Below are positions 51,250-64,000 of a stretch of DNA of 64,000 bases, one piece after another. The notes below the pieces were generated by a model. The model did not search any database, was not told the DNA's origin, and saw nothing but the letters and a program-made list of their open reading frames with translations. The position numbers and the translations under genes were made by a program. Origin of the DNA: Terrabacter sp. Root181 (GTDB lineage: Bacteria; Actinomycetota; Actinomycetes; Actinomycetales; Dermatophilaceae); assembly GCF_001428505.1 (NCBI RefSeq), contig NZ_LMHU01000001.1, forward strand, positions 828,891 to 892,890, read 5' to 3'. Position 1 is the stretch's first letter, and every line of letters starts with the position of its first letter.

Positions 51250-52437
51250 TCATGGTCCCCCGGCCGAGCCGCTGACCTGGGCCGCGCCCCGACCGGCGAG
51301 GGCCGCGACGATCAGCGCCAGGCCGGCGACGACGGCGAGCAGGATCGTCCAGCCGGTGCCGAGATCGCCGGCGAAGACCACGACGAGGACGCAGAGGACG
51401 GCGACCCCGATGGCGACCGGGATCGCGAGGGGCGTGCCGGCGGCGCGGTCCATCCCGCCCCGCGCACCGTCCCAGCCGGCGACGGCCAGTGACCGCACCC
51501 GGCGGGCCCCGCGCGACGGGCCCACGACGAGCGCGACGAGCACCATCACGAGGAAGAAGGCGACGACGACGCGCACCATCTGGCGCAGCCCTTCGGTGAG
51601 GGTGTCGATGATGGAGACCGCGGCTGCGGAGGCCCCGGGCGGCAGGCTGCTCGCCACGTGCGAGCGGGCGAACGACAGCCCCAGCACGAGCACGACGCAG
51701 GCGACGGCGGCACCGAGCCCCACGCGTACCAGTGCTCGTCGGCGGTCGCGTGCCATCGCGACCCCGCCCGCGATGAACGCGATGGCCAGCAGCGGCAGCG
51801 CGACTCCGCCGACGCGCAGGGCGTTGTAGGCGGTACGCGCGGTGTCGAGGTCGCTGCTGGGCAGCAGGGGGACCGAGACGGTGATCGGCGGCAGCTTGTC
51901 GACGAGCGGGACCCCTGCGGCGACGAGACGCTGCTCGATGGGCTCGACGATGTTGCCGATGTCGATGCTGACGTCGGTCCCGTTGTCGACGATGGCGCCG
52001 TCGGGTGACCGCGAGAGCACGGCGACGAGCTGGGCGTGCGAGACCTGGTTGGCGGCGACCCAGACCGTGGCGAACTGGTCGCTCCCGACGACGGCGGTGA
52101 CGACACGGCGCACGACCTGCTCGACCTGGGCCGCGAGGGGAGCTTTGAGCAGCCCGAGTGCTCGTGCTGCGACCGGTCGGCCTCCGGCCTCGAGCGCCTC
52201 CAGGGCTCGGTCGACCAGGTGCTGGTCGCTGATGGCGACCAGGACGCGTGCCGTCGCACGGTCCTCGACGAACGCGGTCACGGCCGGGTCGGTGGCGAGC
52301 GGTGTCACGGTCTCGACCCAGTTGTCGGTGTCGGTCACCGTCGTGCGCAGCCACGTCGCCGTCACCCCGACGGGCACGAGCACGACGCCGATGACGATGA
52401 GCACGGCTGCCAGCACCGAGCGCAGGCGTGCAGGCAT
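51250..52437 (-). CDS. Polytopic membrane protein of unknown function (395 aa)
   Basis: One N-terminal span (LRSVLAAVLIVIGVVLVPVGV), then about 180 residues outside the membrane (WVETVTPLATDPAVTAFVEDRAT, VEQVVRRVVTAVV), then several spans (GVALPLLAIAFIAGGVAM, VGLGAAVACVVLVLGLSF, VVVAFFLVMVLVALVV, and two near the C-terminus). The layout is common in actinobacterial hypothetical membrane proteins, but no function is known. Convergent with the GH3 gene; 96 bases upstream lies another membrane gene. Confidence 0.75.
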   Translation of the reverse strand: MPARLRSVLAAVLIVIGVVLVPVGVTATWLRTTVTDTDNWVETVTPLATDPAVTAFVEDRATARVLVAISDQHLVDRALEALEAGGRPVAARALGLLKAPLAAQVEQVVRRVVTAVVGSDQFATVWVAANQVSHAQLVAVLSRSPDGAIVDNGTDVSIDIGNIVEPIEQRLVAAGVPLVDKLPPITVSVPLLPSSDLDTARTAYNALRVGGVALPLLAIAFIAGGVAMARDRRRALVRVGLGAAVACVVLVLGLSFARSHVASSLPPGASAAAVSIIDTLTEGLRQMVRVVVAFFLVMVLVALVVGPSRGARRVRSLAVAGWDGARGGMDRAAGTPLAIPVAIGVAVLCVLVVVFAGDLGTGWTILLAVVAGLALIVAALAGRGAAQVSGSAGGP

Positions 52438-52533: not shown

Positions 52534-52923
52534 TCAGGCCGGGTGGCGCTTGGCCGGGCGGGCCAGCTGCGGGGTCACCGATCGACCGCGCAGCAGCAGG
52601 AGGCCGCCCACGACGATGCAGACGACCTCGGCCACGGCCGCCGTCCAGACCGATCCGCCCGCCCAGACGGTGTGCACGCCGAGCAGCCCGACGGTGGAGG
52701 CGATGATGAAGGCCCCGAGCGTCGCGGCCCCGAAACCGGCGGTGAGGAAGGCGGGCACCCAGTGCTCCCAGCGGAGCAGCAGGATCGCGATGACCACACC
52801 GGCGACGACGTTGATGAGGAACATCGGCCCAACGGTCTGGTTGCGCACCCCGTCGAACCACAGGTAGAGGTGCACTCCGGCGGAGACGAGCAACGCCACC
52901 GCTCCCACGCCTCGGAGTCTCAT
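52534..52923 (-). CDS. Small four-span membrane protein (129 aa)
   Basis: Four predicted helices: GAVALLVSAGVHLYLWF, MFLINVVAGVVIAILLL, AFLTAGFGAATLGAFIIAS and AAVAEVVCIVVGGLLLL, with a basic tail. The pattern HLYLWFDGVRNQTVGPMFLIN recurs in actinobacterial proteins of unknown role. It is upstream of the larger membrane gene on the same strand and may share its transcript. Confidence 0.7.
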   Translation of the reverse strand: MRLRGVGAVALLVSAGVHLYLWFDGVRNQTVGPMFLINVVAGVVIAILLLRWEHWVPAFLTAGFGAATLGAFIIASTVGLLGVHTVWAGGSVWTAAVAEVVCIVVGGLLLLRGRSVTPQLARPAKRHPA

Positions 52924-53019: not shown

Positions 53020-54726
53020 TCAGCCTCCGGCGCCGGGCCCGTAGGCGGTGAGGAAACGGTCGCGGAAGCGGTCCATCGGCCAGACCGGCGCGGTGGGGCC
53101 GGGCCGCAGCCCGTCCTGCCAGCCCCACCTGGAGATGCGGTCGAGCACGGCCGGGTCCCGGGAGACGATGCTGACGGGCACGTCGTGCCCGGCGTGGTCA
53201 CCGGAGACGATGCTGACCGGCTGGTGGTCGCCCAGCACGACGACGACGAGGTCGTCGTCGTGGGTCCCGCGCAGGAACGACACGACGCTGTCGAGGGAGT
53301 AGGCGACGGTCTGGCCGTATGCCGTCCGCACCCCGGCGGTGCTGCTCCACACGGCGTCGCGTGGCCGGGCCTGTCCGGCTTGGGCGAGGAAGGTGGAGCC
53401 GTCGCCGACGGCGGCCCAGTCGACGAGCCGGGGCAGCGGGGCCCACGGGACGTGGCTCGTCACGAGGTCGATCTCGGCCATGACGGGAGGGCGGCCGCCC
53501 GGTGGGCGACTCTCGAGCTCCAGCCGGTCGAAGGCCGACAGGGTGTACTGGTCGGGCATGGGTGCGTAGCCGAAGCCCGGCCCGGCATAGCCCAGGGTGC
53601 GCGCGTCGTAGACGGCGTCGTAGCCGTAGAAGGCCTTGCCCTCGGGCCAGTCGTGGCGGTTGGCCGGGATGACGTCGACGGTGCGCCAACCGGCGCGTGA
53701 GAAGGCCTCGGCCAGGGTGAGGCGTCGGGAGGCCGACGTGGCGGTGTCGAGCAGCTGGTCGTAGCGCTGCTGGCTGCTCACCCAGAGGCCCGACTGGAGG
53801 GTCGAGTGGGCGAGCCAGCTGATCCCGCCGAACGTCGGGGACGTGAGCCAGGCGCTGCGCGTCGTGTAGCCGGAGGCCTCGAGCCCGCTCGTCCCGGCTG
53901 CGAGCGCCCTTGCCACGTCAGGGCTCTCGTCGACGGCGACCTTGCCGTAGCTCTCGACGAAGACGACGACGACGTCCTTGCCGCGCAGCGCGGTCAGCAG
54001 GTCGCCCGGAGGGGTGTCGTGGAACGGGTCGACGGCGATCTGGGCGGCGAAGACGTCCTGGTCGTGCAGGCCGTCGCGCACGGACGTGATCTCGCGGGCG
54101 GCGAGGGCCACGGTGCTCGACGAGGCCACGGGCAGGTCGGTGGTGGCACCGAGTCCCAAAGAGGCGCAGACGAGCCAGGCGACGGTCGCGGCCCCGAGGG
54201 CTCGCAGCGCGCCCGTGCGGTGCCGGTCGACGAGCAGCCCGACCCGTCGCACGGCCAGCGGGGTCAGGGCGACCAGCGCGATCAGGACCAGCCCGGCCGC
54301 GACGGCGGCCAGCACCGCGGTCACGGGACCGGTCGACTCGCCGAGGAGGTCGGTGGCGGAGCCGGCGTAGCGCCAGTCGGTCAGCGGGTTGAACGCCCGG
54401 TAGAGCGTGGCGAGGAAGGCCGCGTCGAGGACCCGCACGACGAGGAGTACTCCGAGGACGAGCCCGACGACGATCGCGAACCACCGCGCGGCGGTTCCGC
54501 GCAGGGCGAGGAGTACGGCGACGAGGAGCAGGGCCTCGACGGGGACACGCAGGAGCGCGAGCGGCGTCGGCGTCCAGCCCACCGCCGGGTTCGGTGCCAC
54601 GAGCGCCACCCACACGAGCAGGACCGCGAGCCCGGTCAGGGCGTGGCCGGCCGCTCGTCGCGTCGTCGCGCGACTGATGCGCGGGGTGGGCGCCGTGTGC
54701 GTCGTGCGCGTCGTCGGCGCGGTCAC
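53020..54726 (-). CDS. Membrane sulfatase/alkaline-phosphatase-fold enzyme, LtaS-like layout (568 aa)
   Basis: About five spans in the first 230 residues (LTGLAVLLVWVALVAPN, LLLVAVLLALRG, FAIVVGLVLGVLLVVRVL, AVLAAVAAGLVLIALVAL) anchor an outward catalytic domain. VVVVFVESYGK carries the first metal ligand, LTSPTFGGISWLAHST the probable nucleophile region and VVVLGDHQPV another metal pair. Such enzymes move phospho-alcohol groups (lipoteichoic acid synthase, phosphoethanolamine transferases) or cut sulfates. GTG start overlaps the CDP-alcohol gene stop, so both act on the same lipid, I infer. Confidence 0.8.
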   Translation of the reverse strand: MTAPTTRTTHTAPTPRISRATTRRAAGHALTGLAVLLVWVALVAPNPAVGWTPTPLALLRVPVEALLLVAVLLALRGTAARWFAIVVGLVLGVLLVVRVLDAAFLATLYRAFNPLTDWRYAGSATDLLGESTGPVTAVLAAVAAGLVLIALVALTPLAVRRVGLLVDRHRTGALRALGAATVAWLVCASLGLGATTDLPVASSSTVALAAREITSVRDGLHDQDVFAAQIAVDPFHDTPPGDLLTALRGKDVVVVFVESYGKVAVDESPDVARALAAGTSGLEASGYTTRSAWLTSPTFGGISWLAHSTLQSGLWVSSQQRYDQLLDTATSASRRLTLAEAFSRAGWRTVDVIPANRHDWPEGKAFYGYDAVYDARTLGYAGPGFGYAPMPDQYTLSAFDRLELESRPPGGRPPVMAEIDLVTSHVPWAPLPRLVDWAAVGDGSTFLAQAGQARPRDAVWSSTAGVRTAYGQTVAYSLDSVVSFLRGTHDDDLVVVVLGDHQPVSIVSGDHAGHDVPVSIVSRDPAVLDRISRWGWQDGLRPGPTAPVWPMDRFRDRFLTAYGPGAGG

Positions 54727-55544
54727 GGCAGCACGCGCGCGTCGACGGCGCTCGGCCCGACGCCCGGCCAGGCAGCGAGGGTCTCGACCTCCGTCGGCCG
54801 GGGCAGCGACAGCCGCCGCAGCGTCACGATCTCGGTGCCGAACGAGACGGCGAGCAGTCCCAGCCCGGTGCCGACAGCGAGCGAGGCGACGGCCGCCGGG
54901 AGGATGCCGGCAGCGGCCACCGTGAGCACGATGCCCTGGTAGGCCGCGACGACCTTGCGCCAGAGCAGCGCCGGGACCTGCCCACGCAGCCACGGCGCCC
55001 AGCGCGCGGCGAGGGCGACGAGCAGCAGGAGGTAACGGGCCGCCCCGACGCCCATCACCCACCACCCGAGGTCCCGCGCGACGTATGCGCTGAGGACGAG
55101 GATGAGGAAGGCGTCGGTCTCCATGTCGAAGCGGGCTCCGAGGGGGTGCACGGTGCCGGTGCGGCGCGCGACGCGGCCGTCCACGGCGTCGAGGACGAGG
55201 GCGACCGCGGCCAGGGCCACCAGGACGCCGGTGGTCTCGTGGGTGCCGGCGGGTTGAGCGACGGTGTCCGCGACCAGAGCCGCGACGCCGCACACGAGGA
55301 CCGCCCGAGACAGGGTGACCCGGTCGGCGGGCAGGAGGCGAGGACGCGAGGCGCGGACGAGCCCGGCACCGAGCAGGACGCACAGCGCCACGCCGCACGC
55401 CAGGCCGACGGCCCAGCCGACGGCACCCAAATCGCCGCCCCGGTCCAGGACGGCGAGCAGGGTCAGCACGCCGACGAGCCCGAGGAACGGGCCGTGAGGG
55501 GTCACGTGACGCACTGCGCCTCCACCGTGCTTGAGAGGTTTCAT
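54723..55544 (-). CDS. CDP-alcohol phosphatidyltransferase-family membrane protein (273 aa)
   Basis: Transfers a phospho-group from a CDP-linked lipid or alcohol to an acceptor. The full family motif is present: D-x2-DG-x2-AR-x8-G-x3-D-x3-D within LDAVDGRVARRTG and HPLGARFDMETD (about residues 117-143). Six or more spans surround it. The acceptor is unknown (glycerol phosphate, inositol or a special head group). First of a two-gene minus unit, 53 bases from the divergent dehydrogenase gene of the same locus. Confidence 0.88.
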   Translation of the reverse strand: MKPLKHGGGAVRHVTPHGPFLGLVGVLTLLAVLDRGGDLGAVGWAVGLACGVALCVLLGAGLVRASRPRLLPADRVTLSRAVLVCGVAALVADTVAQPAGTHETTGVLVALAAVALVLDAVDGRVARRTGTVHPLGARFDMETDAFLILVLSAYVARDLGWWVMGVGAARYLLLLVALAARWAPWLRGQVPALLWRKVVAAYQGIVLTVAAAGILPAAVASLAVGTGLGLLAVSFGTEIVTLRRLSLPRPTEVETLAAWPGVGPSAVDARVLP

Positions 55545-55597
55545 CCAAGGACGCCGTCGTCACCGTCGGAGTTCACGGACAGCCCTAGTCTGGTCGC

Positions 55598-56590
55598 GTG
55601 TCCACCGATGCGCGGGCGTTCTGGGTGGTCGAGCCCGGCAGGGGCGAGATCCGGCCGGTCACCGTGCCCGCACCCGGTTCCGGCGAGGTGCTCGTGCGGG
55701 CGCTGCACTCGGGGGTGAGCCGTGGCACCGAGACCATCGTCTTCCGTGGCGCCGTGCCCGAGGACCAGTACGCCGTCATGCGCGCCCCGCACCAGGAGGG
55801 CGACTTCCCCGGTCCGGTGAAGTACGGCTACCTCGGTGTCGGCGTCGTCGACGAGGGGCCTTCGGCGCTCCTCGGGCGGACGGTCTTCTGCCTGCACCCG
55901 CACCAGACGGCATACGTCGTGCCGGTCGAGTCGGTGGTCGTCGTGCCCGACGACGTGCCGGCACGGCGGGCCGTGCTCGCGGGCACGGTCGAGACGGCCG
56001 TCAACGCGCTCTGGGACGCCGCCCCCCGAATCGGTGACCGGGTGGCCGTCGTCGGGGCGGGGATGGTCGGATGCTGCGTCGCGCGCCTGCTCGCCGCGAT
56101 CCCCGGCTGCCGGGTGACCCTCGTCGACGTGGACCCGGCCCGCGAGCCGGTGGCCGCGCGTCTCGGTGTCGCCTTCGCGCGACCCGACGACCTCGCGGAC
56201 GCGCACGGAGACCACGACCTCGTCGTCCACACCAGCGCGACGGGCGCGGGGCTCCAGCTCTCGCTCGACCTCCTCGCGCCGGAGGCGACCGTGCTCGACC
56301 TCAGCTGGTACGGCGACACGCGGGTCGGGCTGTCGCTCGGTGGGTCGTTCCACTCGTCGCGGCTCCGCATCCGTGCCAGTCAGGTCGGTTCCGTTGCGGC
56401 AGCGCGGCGCTCGCGCTACTCGTATGCCGAGCGCCTGACGCTCGCCGTCGGCCTCCTGCGCGATCCCGCCTTCGATGCCCTGCTGACCGGTGACTCGCCG
56501 TTCGAGGAGCTGCCCGCCCTCATGCCTCGTCTCGCGGACGGCACCCTGCCGGCCATCTGCCACACCATCTCCTACCGACCCACCGACTGA
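55598..56590 (+). CDS. Medium-chain dehydrogenase/reductase, BchC-like, zinc-independent (330 aa)
   Basis: Alcohol-dehydrogenase fold: VLVRALHSGVSRGTETIVFRG and KYGYLGVGVV in the first domain, VAVVGAGMVGCCVARLLAAIPG then TLVDVD as the NAD site. The usual catalytic zinc Cys and His ligands are not evident. Nearest in pattern to the bacteriochlorophyllide dehydrogenase BchC and related enzymes of biosynthetic clusters. TAGTCT six bases before GTG 55598 suggests a leaderless start of the whole plus-strand operon (to 60506). Confidence 0.8.
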   Translation: MSTDARAFWVVEPGRGEIRPVTVPAPGSGEVLVRALHSGVSRGTETIVFRGAVPEDQYAVMRAPHQEGDFPGPVKYGYLGVGVVDEGPSALLGRTVFCLHPHQTAYVVPVESVVVVPDDVPARRAVLAGTVETAVNALWDAAPRIGDRVAVVGAGMVGCCVARLLAAIPGCRVTLVDVDPAREPVAARLGVAFARPDDLADAHGDHDLVVHTSATGAGLQLSLDLLAPEATVLDLSWYGDTRVGLSLGGSFHSSRLRIRASQVGSVAAARRSRYSYAERLTLAVGLLRDPAFDALLTGDSPFEELPALMPRLADGTLPAICHTISYRPTD

Positions 56591-56602
56591 AGCGGGGAGC
56601 CG

Positions 56603-57001
56603 ATGTTCAGCGTGACCGTCCGGGACCACATGATGATCGCGCACAGCTTCCGCGGGGAGGTGTTCGGCCCGGCCCAGCGGCTGCACGGGGCGACGTTCGT
56701 CGTCGACGTGACCTTCCGTGGACCCGAGCTCGACCGCGATGACATCCTCGTCGACATCGGCCTGGCGACCCGGCACGTCCGCGAGGTCGTCGGTGCCCTC
56801 GGCTACCGCAACCTCGACGACGATCCGGACTTCGCGGGCGTCAACACCTCGACCGAGGTGCTGGCCCGCACGATCGCCGAGCGGGTCGCGGACCGGGTGC
56901 GCGCCGGCGACCTCGGCGGCGCCACCGACCAGGTGACCGGGCTCGTCGTGACGCTCCACGAGTCGCACGTCGCGTGGGCGAGCTACGAGTGCGACCTCTG
57001 A
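56603..57001 (+). CDS. 6-pyruvoyl-tetrahydropterin synthase/QueD-fold protein with altered active site (132 aa)
   Basis: Fold markers: [28 protein letters not shown], then [15 protein letters not shown] and [16 protein letters not shown] and QueD enzymes use a zinc held by three His and a catalytic Cys. Here the LHGH pattern reads LHGA (Ala30) and no Cys lies before it; the only Cys is third from the end. So it probably does not do the standard reaction. It may bind a pterin or carry a new activity. Lies 12 bases after the dehydrogenase. Confidence 0.82.
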
Positions 57002-58050
57002 GCGAGGTCCACGCGGTCGTCCCGGACGGGATCGACGACCCCACCCGCCCGAGCGGGGGAAACACCTACGACCGCAGGGTGATCGACGGGTTGAGGACCG
57101 CGGGCCGGGTGGTGACCGAGCATGCGGTGCCCGGAGCCTGGCCGCGACCGGACGCGGCGGCTCTGGCGCGTCTGGCCGAGGTCGTCGATGCGGTCCCCGC
57201 GGACGCCGTGCTGCTCGTCGACGGTCTCGTCGCGTGCGCCGCCGACGAGGTCCTCGTGCCGGCGGCGGACCGCGTCCGTCTCGTCGTGCTCGTGCACCTG
57301 CCGCTCGGGTCGGCCGACGCCGCAGCGGCCGCGGGGGAGCAGCGGGTGCTCTCGGTGGCGACGGCCGTCGTCACGACGAGTGCCTGGACGCGAGACGTGC
57401 TGCTCGACGCGTACGCCCTCCCTCCCGGGCTCGTGCACGTCGCCCGACCCGGGGTCGACCGTGCGCCCCTGGCCGCGGGCTCGCGCGACGGCGGGCGCCT
57501 GTTGTGCGTCGGTGCCGTGACCGCGCTCAAGGGGCAGGCCGAGCTCGTGGTGGCGCTCGCCCTCGTGCGCGACCTGACGTGGTCGTGCGTCCTGGCCGGC
57601 GCACTCACGCGTGAGCCGGCGCTCGTCCACGGACTGCGTCGACGGCTCGCGGCGTCGGGGCTCACCGATCGCGTGCGCCTCGTGGGCCCCCTCGGTGGCG
57701 CGGACCTCGAGGAGGCGTATGCCGCCGCCGACCTCCTCGTGCTGCCCTCCCTCGTCGAGACGTACGGGATGGTCGTGACCGAGGCCCTCGCTCGTGGTGT
57801 CCCGGTGCTGGCCTCTCACGTCGGCGGGGTGTCCGAGGCGCTCGGGGAGGCCGGCGACGGCCCGCCGGGCCTGCTCGTGCCGGCCGGTCGTCCCGGCGCG
57901 CTGGCGGCCGCCCTCCGGTCCTGGCTGACCGACGGCGACCTGCGTGAGCGGTTGCGACGACGGGCGGTCGCGCGATGCGAGACCCTTGTGCCGTGGTCGG
58001 ACACGGTGGACCACGTCTCGGCCGTGCTCGACGGGGTACGGGCCGGCTGA
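56989..58050 (+). CDS. Glycosyltransferase family 4 (GT-B fold, about 353 aa)
   Basis: Retaining GT-B enzyme: [21 protein letters not shown] at the acceptor-side N-terminus, [21 protein letters not shown] (start of the donor domain), and [31 protein letters not shown] (donor sugar site). GTG 56989 overlaps the PTPS gene by 13 bases; CTG 56998, overlapping as CTGA, is the alternative. It presumably adds a sugar to the product of this locus, lipid or pterin-like; the acceptor is unknown. Confidence 0.85.
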
Positions 58051-58133
58051 ACCCGATCGTCGACACGGACGTCGTCACCATCAGGGGGTCCCGGGCAGAC
58101 CCCCGGCAGACCCGGGCAGAAAGGGCGGAGGAG

Positions 58134-59144
58134 ATGCGACCCGACCGATCCTGGCTGCGCCCCGTCGCGGGGCTCGCGATCCTCGGTGTCCTCGTATGGC
58201 GCATCGGTGGCGAGGCCTTCGTCGACGGACTGCGCCATGTCGACGCGTGGTCGGTCGCCGCCGCGGCTGCGATCGCGGTCGTGACGACCGTGTGCGGGGC
58301 CTGGCGGTGGGTCCTCGTTTCGCGGGGGCTCGGGACCGAGCTGTCCCTGCGCTCGGCCGTCGCAGCGTGCTACCGGTCGCAGTTCCTCAACGTGACCCTC
58401 CCCGGCGGGGTGCTCGGCGACGTGCACCGCGGTGTGCGCCACGGCCGCCGGGGCGGCGACCTGGGCCGCGGGCTGCGGTCCGTCGTGTGGGAGCGGGCGG
58501 CGGGTCAGGTCGTCCTCGTCGTGCTGACCGTCGGTGCCGTGCTGCTCCTGCCGTCGCCGGTGTCGTCGCTGCCGGAGGGCGAATCGCCTCTTCCGACAGT
58601 GCTTCTCGTCGCTGCCGCACTAGCGGTCGTCGCCGCCCTGGCCGTCGTGGTGGCGCGAGGGCGCCGTGTGTCGGGGAAGCGCCCGACGGTTCGAGTCGCT
58701 CGCGACGCGCGGGTCCCGCGGGTCTCGCGGGCCGGGCAGGTCGCGGTGGCCGACCTGCGAGCGGGACTGCTGGGACGGCATACGTGGCCGGGAGTCGTCG
58801 CGGTCTCCACGGTCGTCGTCGTCGGACACGTGGCGACCTTCGTGCTCGCAGCCAGGAGCGCCGGGGTCACCGCGTCGGTGGGCGACCTGGTGCCGCTTGC
58901 ACTCGTGGTGCTCGTCGCGATGGCCGTGCCCCTCAACGTCGCCGGGTGGGGACCCCGTGAAGGGGTCGCGGCGTGGGCGTTCGGGGTCGCCGGCCTCGGG
59001 GTCGCCGGGGGAGTGGGGACCGCCGTCGTCTACGGCGTCATGTCGTTCGTCGCCGCCCTCCCCGGCGCGGCGCTGCTCGTCACCTCGCGGCGCGAGACCC
59101 ACCGCGCCACGGGCGTCGCTGCGGAAGGAGCTGTCAGTGGCTGA
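58134..59144 (+). CDS. Flippase-like membrane protein, lysylphosphatidylglycerol-synthase TM region family (336 aa)
   Basis: Seven or eight spans. FLNVTLPGGVLGDVHRGVR and VWERAAGQVVLVVL are the hallmarks of the UPF0104/AglD-like group, which includes MprF flippase regions and proteins proposed to move glycolipids. MAVPLNVAGWGPREGVAAWAF is another signature. No synthase domain is attached. GGAGGAG is directly before ATG 58134; three imperfect 10-11 bp repeats (58091-58121) lie in the leader. It may flip the lipid built by the neighbouring enzymes. Confidence 0.82.
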   Translation: MRPDRSWLRPVAGLAILGVLVWRIGGEAFVDGLRHVDAWSVAAAAAIAVVTTVCGAWRWVLVSRGLGTELSLRSAVAACYRSQFLNVTLPGGVLGDVHRGVRHGRRGGDLGRGLRSVVWERAAGQVVLVVLTVGAVLLLPSPVSSLPEGESPLPTVLLVAAALAVVAALAVVVARGRRVSGKRPTVRVARDARVPRVSRAGQVAVADLRAGLLGRHTWPGVVAVSTVVVVGHVATFVLAARSAGVTASVGDLVPLALVVLVAMAVPLNVAGWGPREGVAAWAFGVAGLGVAGGVGTAVVYGVMSFVAALPGAALLVTSRRETHRATGVAAEGAVSG

Positions 59145-59832
59145 CCGTCCGTACACCCTGCTCAGCTGCGGCATGTCGATCGACGGCTACCTCAGTGCCG
59201 GCACCTCGACCCGCCTCATGCTGTCCAACGACGCCGACTTCGACCGCGTCGACGGCGAGCGGGCCGCCAGCGACGCGATCCTCGTGGGCGCGAGCACGAT
59301 CCGCCACGACAACCCGCGCCTGCTCGTCCGCTCGGCCGAGCGCCGCGCCGCGCGCGTGGCCCGCGGGCTCACCCCGTCGCCCACGAAGGTGACGGTTACG
59401 AGGCGTGCCGAGCTCGACTGTGCCGCAAGCTTCTTCGCGGCCGACGGTGCCGACAAGCTCGTCTACTGCCCGACCGACGTGGTGCCCGAGGCCCGCGAGC
59501 GGCTCGGCGCCGCAGCGGCCGTCGTCGACGCCGGCCGTCCGGCGACGATGCGCCGGGTCTGCGAGGACCTCGGCGACCGCGGCGTGCAGCGGCTCATGGT
59601 CGAGGGCGGTGGGACCGTGCACACCCAGCTGCTCACCGACGACCTCGCCGACGAGCTCCAGCTCGTCGTGGCGCCCTTCTTCGTCGGGGACTCGGCCGCG
59701 TGCCGGTTCGTCGGGGACGGGCGCTATCCGTGGAACGCCGGCCGTCGCGCGACCCTCGCCGAGGTGCGCCAGATCGGCGACGTGGTCCTGCTGAGGTATG
59801 CGTTGTCGCCGCGTTTCCGGGAGGGCGCATGA
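59137..59832 (+). CDS. RibD C-terminal-type pyrimidine/pterin reductase (231 aa)
   Basis: NADPH-dependent reductase with the DHFR-like fold: LLSCGMSIDGYLSAG, SDAILVGASTIRHDNPRLLVR, then RLMVEGGGTVHTQLL and FVGDSAACRF. In riboflavin synthesis this domain reduces the ribose side chain of the deaminated pyrimidine. Here the deaminase half of RibD is absent, so it works alone on a GTP cyclohydrolase product. GTG 59137 overlaps the preceding gene by 8 bases; stop overlaps the cyclohydrolase gene (ATGA). Confidence 0.88.
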   Translation: MADRPYTLLSCGMSIDGYLSAGTSTRLMLSNDADFDRVDGERAASDAILVGASTIRHDNPRLLVRSAERRAARVARGLTPSPTKVTVTRRAELDCAASFFAADGADKLVYCPTDVVPEARERLGAAAAVVDAGRPATMRRVCEDLGDRGVQRLMVEGGGTVHTQLLTDDLADELQLVVAPFFVGDSAACRFVGDGRYPWNAGRRATLAEVRQIGDVVLLRYALSPRFREGA

Positions 59833-60506
59833 CCTCCGCGGCGCCGGACCCCACCCCGGCGACACCTCCCCCGGCCCGGATCCGCACCCACGTGCTCGTG
59901 CCGGTCGGGTTCGCCGACGGCTTCGAGACGACGGCGCGCGTCTTCACCTTCGACGGCCTCGCCGACGGGCGCGAGCACCTCGCGCTGGGTCTCGGCGACC
60001 GCGCCGCGTCCCCGGGCGCCGGCGCGTGTGACCGCGACCCGACGCCCACGCGGCTGCACAGCGAGTGCCTGACCGGCGACGTCTTCGGCAGCCGGCGGTG
60101 TGACTGCGGCGCCCAGCTGCGCGAGTCCGTCGAGCGCCTCGACGCAAGCGGTGGGTTCCTGCTCTACCTGCGGCAGGAGGGGCGCGGCATCGGCCTCTAT
60201 CCCAAGCTCGACGCGTACGTGCTCCAGGACGCGGGGCTCGACACCTACGAGGCGAACGTCGCGCTCGGCTACGGCGAGGACGAGCGGGACTACACCGTGG
60301 CCGCCCAGATGCTCGGCGCGCTCGGGGTCAGCCGGGTCGCCCTGCTCAGCAACAACCCCGACAAGGCCGAGCAGCTGCGGGCCCTCGGGGTCACGGTGGT
60401 CCGCCGCGTGCCGACGGGGGTCCACCTCTCCGACGCGAACGCCCACTACCTCGCGACGAAGGTCGTGCGCGGCGCGCACACCCTCGACCTGCGCGTCCAG
60501 CCCTGA
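59829..60506 (+). CDS. ribA: GTP cyclohydrolase II (225 aa)
   Basis: Opens the imidazole ring of GTP and releases pyrophosphate, giving the 2,5-diaminopyrimidine. Zinc ligands Cys80, Cys91 and Cys93 (C-x10-C-x-C) are intact, LLYLRQEGRGIGL supplies the catalytic Tyr and Arg, and LLSNNPDK the distal part. No DHBP synthase domain is fused. As other riboflavin genes are missing, this is more likely a paralogue for a special product. About 25 extra N-terminal residues are Pro/Ala-rich. Last gene of the plus-strand operon. Confidence 0.9.
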   Translation: MTSAAPDPTPATPPPARIRTHVLVPVGFADGFETTARVFTFDGLADGREHLALGLGDRAASPGAGACDRDPTPTRLHSECLTGDVFGSRRCDCGAQLRESVERLDASGGFLLYLRQEGRGIGLYPKLDAYVLQDAGLDTYEANVALGYGEDERDYTVAAQMLGALGVSRVALLSNNPDKAEQLRALGVTVVRRVPTGVHLSDANAHYLATKVVRGAHTLDLRVQP

Positions 60507-60560
60507 TTGACCGCGGCGCCCGGCGGTGCATCATGGGTCAGTGGACGACGGGACTTTCGG

Positions 60561-62027
60561 ATGACGCCGGAGCAGCCTCTCTCGGTGACGGTCAACGGCG
60601 CCGAGCTCGACCTGGCGGGCACCGACCCTGCGACCAATGCCCTCGACTGGCTGCGAGGGCAGGGGCTCACCGGGGCCAAGGAGGGGTGCGCCGAGGGAGA
60701 GTGCGGCGCCTGCGCGGTCCTCGTGGCCCGCCCCGACGGTGGGTCGGGCACCGAGTGGACGGCCGTCAATGCCTGTCTCCTGCCGGCCGCCTCGTTGGAC
60801 GGCCAGGAGGTCGTCACGGCCGAGGGACTGGGGACGCCGGGGCACCTGCACCCGGTGCAGCACGAGATGGCGGTGCGAGGCGGGTCGCAGTGCGGCTACT
60901 GCACGCCCGGTTTCGTCTGCTCCATGGCTGCCGAGTACTACCGCGCCGACCGGCAGGACGACGGTGCCCGTGTGGGCGGGGACGCGGACAGGCACGAGTC
61001 GGGGCCCAACGGGTTCCGTCTCGGAGCGCTCTCAGGCAACCTGTGCCGGTGCACCGGCTACCGGCCCATCCGGGACGCGGCCTTCGCGCTCGAGTCCCCG
61101 GCAGCCGACGACAGGCTCGCCGCGCGGCGCTCGGACGCGCCGCCACCTCCGGTCGGGACCCGGCTCTCGGGGGCGACCGGCACGTATGCCCGTGCGGCCG
61201 ACCTCGACGAGGCGCTCGACCTGCTCGCGGGCCATCCGGGCGCGGCGGTCGTCGCCGGCTCGACCGACTGGGGCGTCGACGTGAATCTCCGTGGCACCCG
61301 AGCGCCGTTCGTCATCGGCATCGACCGTCTGCCCGAGCTGCGCCGCCTCGAGATCGGTGACGAGGCCGTCGAGATCGGCGCCGCGTTGACCCTCACCGAG
61401 GTGCAGCGCGAGCTGGCGGGGCGGATCCCCCTGCTCGACCAGGTGTTCCCCCAGTTCGGCTCCCGACTCATCCGCAACGGTGCGACCGTCGGCGGCAACC
61501 TCGGCACGGGCTCCCCGATCGGTGACCTGCCGCCCGCGCTGCTCGCGCTCGAGGCCGTCGTCGTGCTCGCGAGCCCCGACGGCGACCGCCAGGTGCCGCT
61601 CGCCGACTACTACACCGGCTACCGGCGGAGCGTGCGCCGGCCCGACGAGCTCATCCGTGCGGTGCGGATCCCCTTGCCGCTCAGCCCGACCACGGCCTTC
61701 CACAAGATCGCCAAGCGCCGCTACGACGACATCTCCAGCGTCGCCGTCGCCGTGGCCCTCGACGTCGTCGACGGCTCCGTCCGGAGGGCGCGCATCGGTC
61801 TCGGCGGCGTGGCAGCCACCCCCGTCAGGGCGCTCGCCACCGAAGCAGCCCTGGAGGGCCGGGCCTGGACCGCGGCGACGGTGCAGGCCGCCGCAGAGGT
61901 GATGCGGGGGGAGGGCACCCCGCTCGACGACCACCGGGCGAGCGCGGCCTACCGCAGCGCTGTGCTGGGCACCTCGCTCCTTCGCCTCCATGCGGACGAG
62001 CAGCCCGAGGACGGGGTGGGTGCATGA
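60561..62027 (+). CDS. xdhA: Xanthine dehydrogenase small subunit: 2Fe-2S and FAD domains (488 aa)
   Basis: Carries electrons from the molybdenum subunit to NAD. First plant-type 2Fe-2S cluster: Cys43, Cys48, Cys51 and Cys72 (EGCAEGECGACAVL). Second cluster: QCGYCTPGF and CRCTGYRP. The FAD domain begins near residue 200 (AVVAGSTDWGVDVNLRG) and contains RLIRNGATVGGNLGTGSPIGDLPPALLAL. ATG 60561 gives the normal N-terminus; a TTG at 60507 would add 18 residues. The stop overlaps xdhB (ATGA). Purine catabolism. Confidence 0.93.
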   Translation: MTPEQPLSVTVNGAELDLAGTDPATNALDWLRGQGLTGAKEGCAEGECGACAVLVARPDGGSGTEWTAVNACLLPAASLDGQEVVTAEGLGTPGHLHPVQHEMAVRGGSQCGYCTPGFVCSMAAEYYRADRQDDGARVGGDADRHESGPNGFRLGALSGNLCRCTGYRPIRDAAFALESPAADDRLAARRSDAPPPPVGTRLSGATGTYARAADLDEALDLLAGHPGAAVVAGSTDWGVDVNLRGTRAPFVIGIDRLPELRRLEIGDEAVEIGAALTLTEVQRELAGRIPLLDQVFPQFGSRLIRNGATVGGNLGTGSPIGDLPPALLALEAVVVLASPDGDRQVPLADYYTGYRRSVRRPDELIRAVRIPLPLSPTTAFHKIAKRRYDDISSVAVAVALDVVDGSVRRARIGLGGVAATPVRALATEAALEGRAWTAATVQAAAEVMRGEGTPLDDHRASAAYRSAVLGTSLLRLHADEQPEDGVGA

Positions 62028-64000
62028 CGTCCCTGTCCCGCCGGCCTGCCGATCCCGTTGTCGGACAGTCGATCCCGCATGAGTCCGCCGCCCTTCACGT
62101 CACGGGCACGGCGCTCTACACCGACGACCTCACGACGCGCACGCACGGTCTGCTCCACGCCCACCCCGTCCAGGCACCGCACGCCCACGCCCGCGTGACG
62201 CGGCTGGACCCCGTCCCCGCGCTCGCCGTCCCGGGCGTCGTGCGCGTCCTCACCGCCGCCGACGTGCCCGGCGTCAACGATGCCGGCGTCAAGCACGACG
62301 AGCCCCTCTTCCCGTCCGAGGTGATGTTCTTCGGGCACGCCGTGTGCTGGGTACTGGCCGACACCCTCGAGGCGGCCCGGCTCGGGGCGCTGGCCGTCGA
62401 GGTGGACTACGAGCCGCTGCCCTCGGTCGTCACCGTCCGCGAGGCGATCGAGGCAGGCAGCTTCCAGGGCGGCCAGCCCAGGCTCGAGCGCGGTGATGTC
62501 GACGAGGCCTTCGGCGCGGCCGAGCACGTGTTCAGCGGCGAGCTCGATCTCGCCGGCCAGGAGCACTTCTACCTCGAGACGCACTGCTCGCTCGCGCACG
62601 TCGACGAGAGCGGACAGGTCTTCGTCCAGAGCAGCACCCAGCACCCGACGGAGACCCAGCAGATCGTGGCGCACGTGCTGGGTCTGGCGAGCCACGGCGT
62701 CACGGTCCAGTGTCTGCGGATGGGAGGAGGCTTCGGTGGCAAGGAGATGCAGCCGCACGGCTACGCGGCCGTGGCCGCGCTGGGAGCCGTCCTGACCGGG
62801 CGGCCGGTGCGTCTGCGCCTCACCCGGACCCAGGACCTGACGATGACGGGCAAGCGACACGGCTTCCACGCCCAGTGGCGCGCCGCCTTCGACGGCGATG
62901 GCCGCATCCGCGCGCTCGACGCCACCCTGACCTCCGACGGCGGCTGGAGCCTCGACCTCTCCGAGCCCGTGCTGGCGCGGGCGCTCTGTCACGTCGACAA
63001 CGCATACTGGATCCCCCACCTGCGGGTCGACGGACGGATCGCCCGGACCCACAAGACGTCCCAGACGGCGTTCCGCGGGTTCGGCGGACCCCAGGGGATG
63101 CTCGTCATCGAGGACGTCCTCGGCCGCTGCGCACCGCTGCTCGGGATCGACCCCGTGGAGCTGCGGCGGCTCAACTTCTACGCAGAGGGTCAGGACACGC
63201 CATACGGTCAGGTCGTCCGTCACCCCGAGCGGGCCGTCGCGTGCTGGGAGCAGGTGCTGACCACCGGCGAGATCGCGGAGCGCTCCGCGGCGATCGCCGC
63301 GTACAACACGTCCCACGAGCACACGAAGCGGGCCCTGGCCGTCACGCCGGTGAAGTTCGGGATCTCCTTCAACTTCACCGCCTTCAACCAGGCCGGGGCG
63401 CTCGTGCACGTCTACAAGGACGGCTCGGTCCTCGTCACGCACGGTGGGACCGAGATGGGCCAGGGCCTGCACACGAAGATGCTGCAGGTGGCTGCCACGT
63501 CGCTAGCCGTCCCCCTGTCGCTCGTCCGGCTGGCACCGACGCGCACCGACAAGGTGCCCAACACGTCCGCGACCGCAGCGAGCTCGGGAGCCGACCTCAA
63601 CGGTGCAGCGGTCAAGGACGCCTGCGAGCAGATCCTGGGCCGGCTCCGCGCCGTGGCCGCTGCCCGGCTGGGCATCCCCGGCGAGGACGTGCGGTTCGAG
63701 GACGGGTGCGCGCGAGCGGCGCAGGGAGCGGCGTCGGAAGCGGGGTCGGGCGCAGCGGAGGTGGCTTGGGCCGATCTCGTGGGCGAGGCCTACTACCAAC
63801 GGGTCCAGCTCTGGGCGGCCGGTTTCTACCGCACCGAGGGACTCCACTGGGACTCGACGAGAATGCACGGCTCGCCGTTCAAGTACTTCTCCTACGGCGC
63901 TGCGGCGGCCGAGGTCGAGGTCGACGGCTTCACCGGTGCCTACCGGCTGCGCCGGGTCGACATCGTGCACGACGTGGGTGACTCGCTCTCCCCACTCGTC
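62024..64000 (+). CDS. xdhB: Xanthine dehydrogenase molybdopterin-binding subunit, first 659 residues (cut by window end)
   Basis: Oxidises hypoxanthine and xanthine at the molybdenum centre. The frame is open to the last base. Start: PVVGQSIPHESAALHVTGTALYTDDL, as in bacterial XdhB. MGGGFGGKEMQPHG and FRGFGGPQGMLVIEDVL are molybdopterin contacts, HGGTEMGQGLHTKMLQVA and NTSATAASSGADLNGAAV lie further on. The catalytic Glu region beyond residue 659 is missing. Overlaps xdhA; an XdhC chaperone gene may follow outside. Confidence 0.93.
   Translation, partial: MTSLSRRPADPVVGQSIPHESAALHVTGTALYTDDLTTRTHGLLHAHPVQAPHAHARVTRLDPVPALAVPGVVRVLTAADVPGVNDAGVKHDEPLFPSEVMFFGHAVCWVLADTLEAARLGALAVEVDYEPLPSVVTVREAIEAGSFQGGQPRLERGDVDEAFGAAEHVFSGELDLAGQEHFYLETHCSLAHVDESGQVFVQSSTQHPTETQQIVAHVLGLASHGVTVQCLRMGGGFGGKEMQPHGYAAVAALGAVLTGRPVRLRLTRTQDLTMTGKRHGFHAQWRAAFDGDGRIRALDATLTSDGGWSLDLSEPVLARALCHVDNAYWIPHLRVDGRIARTHKTSQTAFRGFGGPQGMLVIEDVLGRCAPLLGIDPVELRRLNFYAEGQDTPYGQVVRHPERAVACWEQVLTTGEIAERSAAIAAYNTSHEHTKRALAVTPVKFGISFNFTAFNQAGALVHVYKDGSVLVTHGGTEMGQGLHTKMLQVAATSLAVPLSLVRLAPTRTDKVPNTSATAASSGADLNGAAVKDACEQILGRLRAVAAARLGIPGEDVRFEDGCARAAQGAASEAGSGAAEVAWADLVGEAYYQRVQLWAAGFYRTEGLHWDSTRMHGSPFKYFSYGAAAAEVEVDGFTGAYRLRRVDIVHDVGDSLSPLV

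Follow-up and report, generated by a model that had tools for sequence, protein, structure and literature searches.

Why should an actinobacterial genome keep riboflavin-type enzymes among genes for glycosyl transfer and membrane lipid chemistry? The question is raised by positions 53020–60506 of a stretch of Terrabacter sp. Root181 (NCBI RefSeq assembly GCF_001428505.1, contig NZ_LMHU01000001.1, forward-strand positions 828,891–892,890), the whole 64,000 nucleotides of which are called the window here. Eight genes lie there in two divergent units. The six on the plus strand encode a medium-chain dehydrogenase, a tunnelling-fold protein of the PTPS-IV type, a GT4-type glycosyltransferase, a flippase-like membrane protein, a stand-alone RibD_C reductase and a GTP cyclohydrolase II (GCH II); the two on the minus strand encode a CDP-alcohol phosphotransferase and an LtaS/EptA-like sulfatase-fold membrane enzyme. 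Our reading, to which we give a probability of roughly 60%, is that they represent a pathway, conserved among actinobacteria, that takes GTP as its starting material, runs separately from riboflavin synthesis and leads to a sugar-bearing pyrimidine- or pterin-like compound, possibly tied to the membrane.

The host genome has two GCH II genes, and the separate, complete rib operon for which the first-pass annotation proposed to look was found in it: ribD-ribE-ribBA-ribH on contig C6, encoding RibD with both deaminase and reductase parts, the lumazine-binding RibE, a DHBP synthase-GCH II fusion and RibH. The GCH II and RibD_C genes of the locus are therefore extra, and a second riboflavin operon is ruled out. 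A redundant or regulated second riboflavin supply would suit two enzymes that belong to riboflavin families, but is very improbable: besides that operon, a Pfam search found no deaminase, DHBP synthase, RibH or RibE domain among the eight genes, as had been said of them before, and the conserved neighbour genes are not riboflavin genes. A service in F420 biosynthesis is hardly to be credited either. A review mentions an unpublished F420 role of PTPS-IV in archaea (PMC5041015), but the host genome gave no CofG match at E ≤ 0.001 in a search that matched 11 of 14 control genomes, three of them over the cut-off, and on this CofG/FbiC evidence F420 biosynthesis is rejected for the host genome.

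The two riboflavin-type enzymes themselves point to consecutive early steps. GCH II (59829–60506, plus; PF00925, 1.8e-52) keeps the zinc ligands Cys54, Cys65 and Cys67 as well as Tyr105, Asp126 and Arg128 (E. coli numbering). The reductase (59137–59832, plus) matches only PF01872 (5.6e-35) and, having no deaminase domain, is not a bifunctional RibD of the kind encoded on C6. Its best model among the NCBIfam matches listed is TIGR01508 (3.5e-36; 124.4 bits, under the curated cut-off of 186.45), the archaeal 2,5-diamino-6-ribosylamino-pyrimidinone 5'-phosphate reductase, whose substrate is undeaminated, and it finds PDB entries 5xv5 and 6p8c. With 13 RibD_C matches in the genome, this domain by itself tells little; its adjacency to GCH II and its fusions elsewhere tell more. 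Single GCH II-RibD_C proteins occur at three other loci (L040:12359–13708, L043:13199–14587 and L180:11179–12720), which also hold the dehydrogenase, PTPS-IV and GT4 genes, and these fusions support the two reactions being consecutive.

How widely the set is kept was judged from genes assigned by homology, GC3-based calling being unreliable in the relatives. The PTPS protein was found in 21 of 58 relatives. It occurs in nine of nine genomes of the genus, counting the host itself, in 6 of 27 drawn from the family's other genera and in 6 of 22 drawn from the order's remaining families. Scanning named genomes turned up at least 588 stretches encoding a relative, of which the best 80 were kept; 63 of these have at least 8 kb on both sides and are called full loci. 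All 63 carry PTPS-IV, the dehydrogenase and GT4, followed by the flippase-like protein (62), GCH II (60), the CDP-alcohol enzyme (59), a methyltransferase (57), RibD_C (41; 27 of one type and 14 of another), a creatininase-family protein (35) and the LtaS-like enzyme (17). The window has neither methyltransferase nor creatininase, and no methyltransferase copy was found elsewhere in the host genome by a search that had no positive control. When the class was sampled evenly, matches came from 57 of 394 genomes, and 40 loci fetched from this sample, some cut by contig ends and one duplicating L109, repeat the gene set in other families and gene orders; the CDP-alcohol and flippase-like genes are each present in 34 and the LtaS-like gene in 16, in 15 of which it adjoins the CDP-alcohol gene. 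The same contig appears in both collections as L026/L045, L027/L044, L028/L097, L031/L048 and L033/L076. Recurrence across families and gene orders, together with the scarcity of the CDP-alcohol and flippase families in the host genome, argues that the set is not a chance one, and the cluster is probably present in hundreds of species, soil actinobacteria among them.

Across the phylum, 10 of 20 fetched loci hold the cluster, and many weak PTPS hits fall outside the subfamily. Loci L164–L169, from one family (f34) of another class, perhaps Acidimicrobiia as a guess, share the order RibD_C, dehydrogenase, PTPS and GT4, with a methyltransferase after GT4 in L167, the single locus of this group tested; in L180 a GCH II-RibD_C fusion is divergent from dehydrogenase, PTPS and GT4. 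These seven clusters have the look of an older core that lacks the membrane genes. Genes divergent from the cluster include FolB in L164 and acyltransferase and MFS genes in L167.

Judged from the cyclohydrolase sequences and their neighbours, the pathway has two interchangeable entry modules, which is new here. In the type seen in the window, the GCH II residue at E. coli position 105 is Tyr, and a RibD_C gene is a constant neighbour. The other type, in Streptomyces, Actinomadura and their kin, has a GCH II of a different lineage with Met, His, Leu, Cys or Gln at that position, and a creatininase-family gene beside the cluster. In the GCH II alignment Tyr is found in all 44 sequences from loci without the creatininase, the window included, and Met, His or Cys in all 41 with it; with L161, L162 and L163 added, residue and creatininase agree in 88 of 88 (45 without, 43 with). 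L180 lies outside the rows of this 88-sequence tree. Among the 29 class-sample loci with a GCH II, nine have Tyr without a creatininase, 19 a different residue with one, and a single locus has Leu with none in the stretch; in that genome the creatininase gene was found 3.4 kb past the end of the fetched stretch, some 13 kb away from PTPS. The combined agreement, one duplicate removed, is 115 of 116 loci, in which the residue is Tyr in 54 (four Tyr-type pairs being duplicates), Met in 43, His in 11, Leu in 6, and Cys and Gln in one each. RibD_C stands near every Tyr-type locus, in 46 of 46 that have GCH II and no creatininase and in nine of nine of the class sample. One locus, L188, has two creatininase-family genes, one of them at the outer end across the cluster.

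A division of labour would account for this pattern. For SCO6655, the GCH II of S. coelicolor, Spoonamore et al. reportedly found in 2006 that the product is the formylated pyrimidine FAPy, with Met120 in place of Tyr as the cause. If SCO6655 stops there, completing the reaction would fall to the neighbouring SCO6654, and the Tyr-type GCH II of the window would perform both steps alone. A formamidase of the required kind is known in BrbF, first annotated as a creatininase, which converts AFRPP (2-amino-5-formylamino-6-ribosylamino-pyrimidinone 5'-phosphate, equal to FAPy) to the diamino compound DARoPP (equal to APy), as its description states (PMC9478397). On this view both modules would yield one and the same diamino compound, which is the most likely substrate of the later steps.

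The PTPS gene (56603–57001, plus; PF01242, 7.5e-24) follows the dehydrogenase gene. What had been called an altered PTPS-fold protein is, by its signature, PTPS-IV, a named subfamily without established function. The FGPAQ signature (COG0720), read as FGPAQ.LHGAT here, is invariant in 15 of 15 aligned rows including the window, and the account of the subfamily in PMC5445326 reports it together with PF00925 and PF01872 in the gene neighbourhood. Of the QueD residues, the window protein has retained the Glu, the first zinc His and the first of the two HGH histidines; the Cys, the other HGH histidine and the LDH-type His are absent. In place of the QueD/PTPS-I motif CxxxHGH, as given in PMC5041015, it reads PAQRLHGAT, with no Cys and with Ala for the second His, and neither the PTPS-II (CxxxxxHGH) nor the PTPS-III (ExxHGH) motif is present. 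The closest solved structure is PDB 3D7J, deposited as 'Uncharacterized protein SCO6650' (profile match, E 4.4e-65), of which the window protein is the ortholog. In L164–L169 the protein reads FGPA with an intact HGHTY and no Cys. Genome G455 has two PTPS-IV clusters, on separate contigs (L183 and L206).

Upstream lies the dehydrogenase gene (55598–56590, plus), whose BchC label denotes resemblance only: the BchC model scores 39.5 bits against a cut-off of 291. Related medium-chain dehydrogenases carry a GxCG(S/T)D zinc motif; the window protein reads VSRGTE at this position, a reading shared by no fewer than 95% of 101 rows. Downstream of the PTPS gene, GT4 (PF00534, 9.7e-28) runs from 56974 as the first possible start, or from an alternative GTG at 56989, to 58050 on the plus strand. 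The flippase-like LPG_synthase_TM protein (about 58131–59144, plus; PF03706, 1.9e-33) has an uncertain start, its frame being open from 57975, and its family takes its name from a lipid flippase domain.

On the minus strand, the CDP-alcohol phosphotransferase (54723–55544; PF01066, 2.1e-11) has six hydrophobic segments and the complete motif of its family, D..DG..AR........G...D...D. The protein at 53020–54726 (minus, GTG start) has five hydrophobic segments followed by a catalytic domain, and it matches no Pfam or NCBIfam model at E ≤ 0.01. Its stretches ESYG, TSPT.GG, SH.PW and GDHQP are invariant in 13 rows, and a profile of its family brings up LtaP (4uop) as a weak match, at E 0.0015 over the full sequence and 0.11 over the best segment. 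The predicted model (mean pLDDT 78) shows the LtaS/EptA layout of five membrane helices and a sulfatase-fold domain and matches LtaP, LtaS and EptA/MCR-type transferases with Foldseek E values from 7.6e-10; by target length the TM score is 0.50 for LtaP and at most 0.59 among the matches shown, and by query length 0.28–0.39. The resemblance to LtaS and EptA is thus a fold match in a predicted model. Enzymes of the LtaS/EptA type act outside the membrane on phospholipid-derived groups, and a lipid-linked or exported product is plausible. The host genome (4.94 Mb) has seven matches to the CDP-alcohol family and four to the flippase-like family, so chance presence within 20 kb would be about 3% and 2%, respectively. 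In 10 of the 20 relatives fetched, a small protein with four hydrophobic segments (window 52534–52923) is encoded beside the LtaS-like gene, and it may be part of the minus unit in that group.

We propose the following order of reactions. GCH II would convert GTP to 2,5-diamino-6-ribosylamino-4(3H)-pyrimidinone 5'-phosphate (APy), a product suggested by Tyr105; in Streptomyces, Actinomadura and kin the Tyr-less enzyme would probably stop at FAPy and the creatininase-family formamidase complete the conversion. RibD_C may then reduce APy before deamination, as in the archaeal pathway, to a ribityl compound. PTPS-IV would hold the 2-amino-4-oxo ring through its conserved Glu and, with the dehydrogenase, reshape or close the ring to a pterin-like compound or modified pyrimidine, which GT4 would glycosylate and, in relatives, the methyltransferase would methylate. 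In the last and weakest step, the flippase-like protein, the CDP-alcohol enzyme and, in some lineages, the LtaS-like enzyme may carry the product to the other side of the membrane or link it with a phospholipid head group. A hitherto unseen membrane-anchored or exported, glycosylated pterin-like lipid, derived from a riboflavin-pathway intermediate and made in Streptomyces during aerial growth and sporulation, is a possibility that we put forward only tentatively.

Several observations weigh against this proposal. The loci of the named-genome scan were the best matches to this window. The GCH II tree of the 116 loci has a single Tyr/non-Tyr change, beside six changes of the exact residue, and the creatininase state changes twice on the joint dehydrogenase and PTPS tree, so the agreement does not amount to many independent tests; an independent-pairs test of the link had one pair only and gave no significance. 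From these trees we read one or two replacements of the entry module and, where the second enzyme had come in, subsequent drift of the residue. RibD_C is absent from the stretch in 28 of 43 creatininase-type loci, by which the reduction to a ribityl compound may be a replaceable step, and the RibD_C parts of L047, L164 and L180 match the general RibD_C model better than the archaeal one. Two cluster creatininases score best against MftE (142.7 and 131 bits; cut-off 172) and reach 39 and 34 bits against ArfB (cut-off 180), below both cut-offs, so that sequence does not settle their activity. PTPS-IV is without one zinc His, the Cys and a His of QueD, and its chemistry cannot be read off. In seven of seven genomes of other classes no Pfam match to the CDP-alcohol or flippase families was found within 20 kb of the PTPS gene; the contig of one of them, G153, ends near the cluster, and Pfam families were used for this check as our own profiles had missed the L167 methyltransferase that Pfam found. 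What the first-pass annotation had expected, a reduced, glycosylated product attached to or moved with a membrane lipid, stands in part: a GTP-derived pathway other than that of riboflavin, with a dedicated GCH II and reductase, is upheld, the two units belong together and co-occur far beyond close relatives, in varied gene orders and several families, and the conserved set includes glycosyl and membrane functions. Attachment to a lipid fares less well, with the LtaS-like gene in 17 of 63 and 16 of 40 loci and the seven clusters of other classes as just described.

These clusters lend themselves to another explanation, in which two separate systems merely travel together: a pterin-type core (dehydrogenase, PTPS-IV, GT4, methyltransferase, RibD_C and GCH II) and a lipid module (CDP-alcohol, LtaS-like and flippase-like proteins). 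The LtaS-like gene is, moreover, missing from 46 of 63 full loci. Against such a coincidence of travel, the CDP-alcohol gene is kept in 59 of 63 and the flippase-like gene in 62 of 63 full loci through different gene orders, from families with only seven and four members in the whole host genome, and we consider it quite unlikely. The chemistry could also run differently, as a split GTP cyclohydrolase I (GCH I). PTPS and GCH I share a fold; GCH II would give APy, and PTPS-IV, whose Glu is kept, would carry out the Amadori rearrangement and ring closure to a dihydroneopterin-type pterin. RibD_C, of dihydrofolate-reductase fold, would then form a tetrahydropterin, the dehydrogenase would act on the side chain, and GT4 would yield a pterin glycoside, a class of compound known from cyanobacteria. 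A late or replaceable reductase fits the 28 creatininase-type loci without RibD_C, but the GCH II-RibD_C fusions and the archaeal-type RibD_C match favour a reduction that directly follows GCH II and would preclude the Amadori rearrangement, and the actinomycete PTPS-IV has no full zinc triad. On this evidence we hold the split cyclohydrolase to be unlikely and retain a pathway in which APy is reduced early.

The layout of the locus stands as first annotated for its eight genes, two divergent units and 53-bp gap. This gap (55545–55597), known here by its coordinates and presumably a shared control region, contains no promoter-like match. The overlaps of 4–13 bases that had been claimed are 4, 8 and 4 bases at three junctions; between PTPS and GT4 the overlap is 13 or 28 bases depending on which GTG starts GT4, and the dehydrogenase and PTPS genes do not overlap. 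Nor do GT4 and the flippase-like gene with the start chosen for the latter, an earlier start of which would overlap. Beyond the minus unit, a 395-residue protein (51250–52437) contains six hydrophobic segments; at E ≤ 0.01 neither Pfam nor NCBIfam gives it a match. Directly downstream of the plus unit (60507–64000) are xanthine dehydrogenase-like genes and then an amidohydrolase, an arrangement noted likewise for L181. The molybdenum-hydroxylase genes near five Streptomyces loci gave only weak matches. The xanthine dehydrogenase-like genes were set aside as pathway members, as with the amidohydrolase that follows they look like purine breakdown.

The pathway joins three loose facts: the 3D7J structure of SCO6650, the reported arrest of SCO6655 at FAPy, and the PTPS-IV gene neighbourhood. 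From the sequence comparison, the window carries a compact version of a real, conserved pathway, with Tyr and RibD_C, and the cluster offers an explanation for why the Streptomyces enzyme, if its reported activity is right, stops half-way. The product would be a new branch of GTP, flavin and pterin metabolism and, if it is a glycosylated pterin-like lipid of the membrane, a new class of redox or light-absorbing molecule of the cell envelope.

Among known systems, vicine and convicine are glucosides. Their synthesis likewise starts a pyrimidine pathway with a riboflavin-pathway enzyme, VC1, but it is a plant pathway with a bifunctional enzyme and without a bacterial cluster (PMC12202586). The pseudoiodinine cluster resembles the toxoflavin pathway, and for the specialised products of both a branching at GCH II and RibD has been proposed, methyltransferases being involved as well (PMC9911603); the psd cluster differs in its WD40 and sulfatase-modifying-factor proteins, proposed for N–N bond formation and not among the eight genes of the window, and the genes listed for it in that account include no PTPS, GT4, flippase or CDP-alcohol enzyme. 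BrbF, unlike this locus, serves riboflavin synthesis in alphaproteobacteria as an AFRPP formamidase, and the AFRPP-making enzyme there is not identified in the description of BrbF (PMC9478397). The statement that no described pathway has this set holds for the pathway, of which no description was found in the literature searched (CC0, CC BY and CC BY-SA papers), but not for its parts: the PTPS subfamily and its GCH II/RibD_C neighbourhood are published. The AGeNNT cluster has the same FGPAQ, with PF00925 and PF01872 as conserved neighbours (PMC5445326); its treatment of PTPS-IV names no pathway, labels PF00925 as FolE2 and is silent on partners of the GT4, lipid, flippase, methyltransferase and creatininase kinds.

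The closest comparison is with S. coelicolor, whose SCO6650–SCO6655 we infer to be an instance of the cluster. SCO6650 is the PTPS-IV ortholog already named, and SCO6655 is listed as a GCH II in PMC2853524, where the relevant data show its expression running against the predicted riboflavin-metabolism flux (r −0.61). The order in S. tendae (L069), namely PTPS, GT4, methyltransferase, flippase, creatininase and GCH II, fits this numbering, the four gene numbers between SCO6650 and SCO6655 matching GT4, methyltransferase, flippase and creatininase; by position, SCO6652 would be the methyltransferase and SCO6654 the creatininase. In the expression series of PMC3610822, SCO6652 rises by log2 values of 0.8, 4.3 and 4.1 at 24, 48 and 72 h relative to the first mycelium, which suggests use in aerial growth and spores. 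A methyltransferase, a creatininase and a GCH II of the Met type mark the Streptomyces form; the window lacks all three and carries RibD_C and a Tyr-type GCH II instead.

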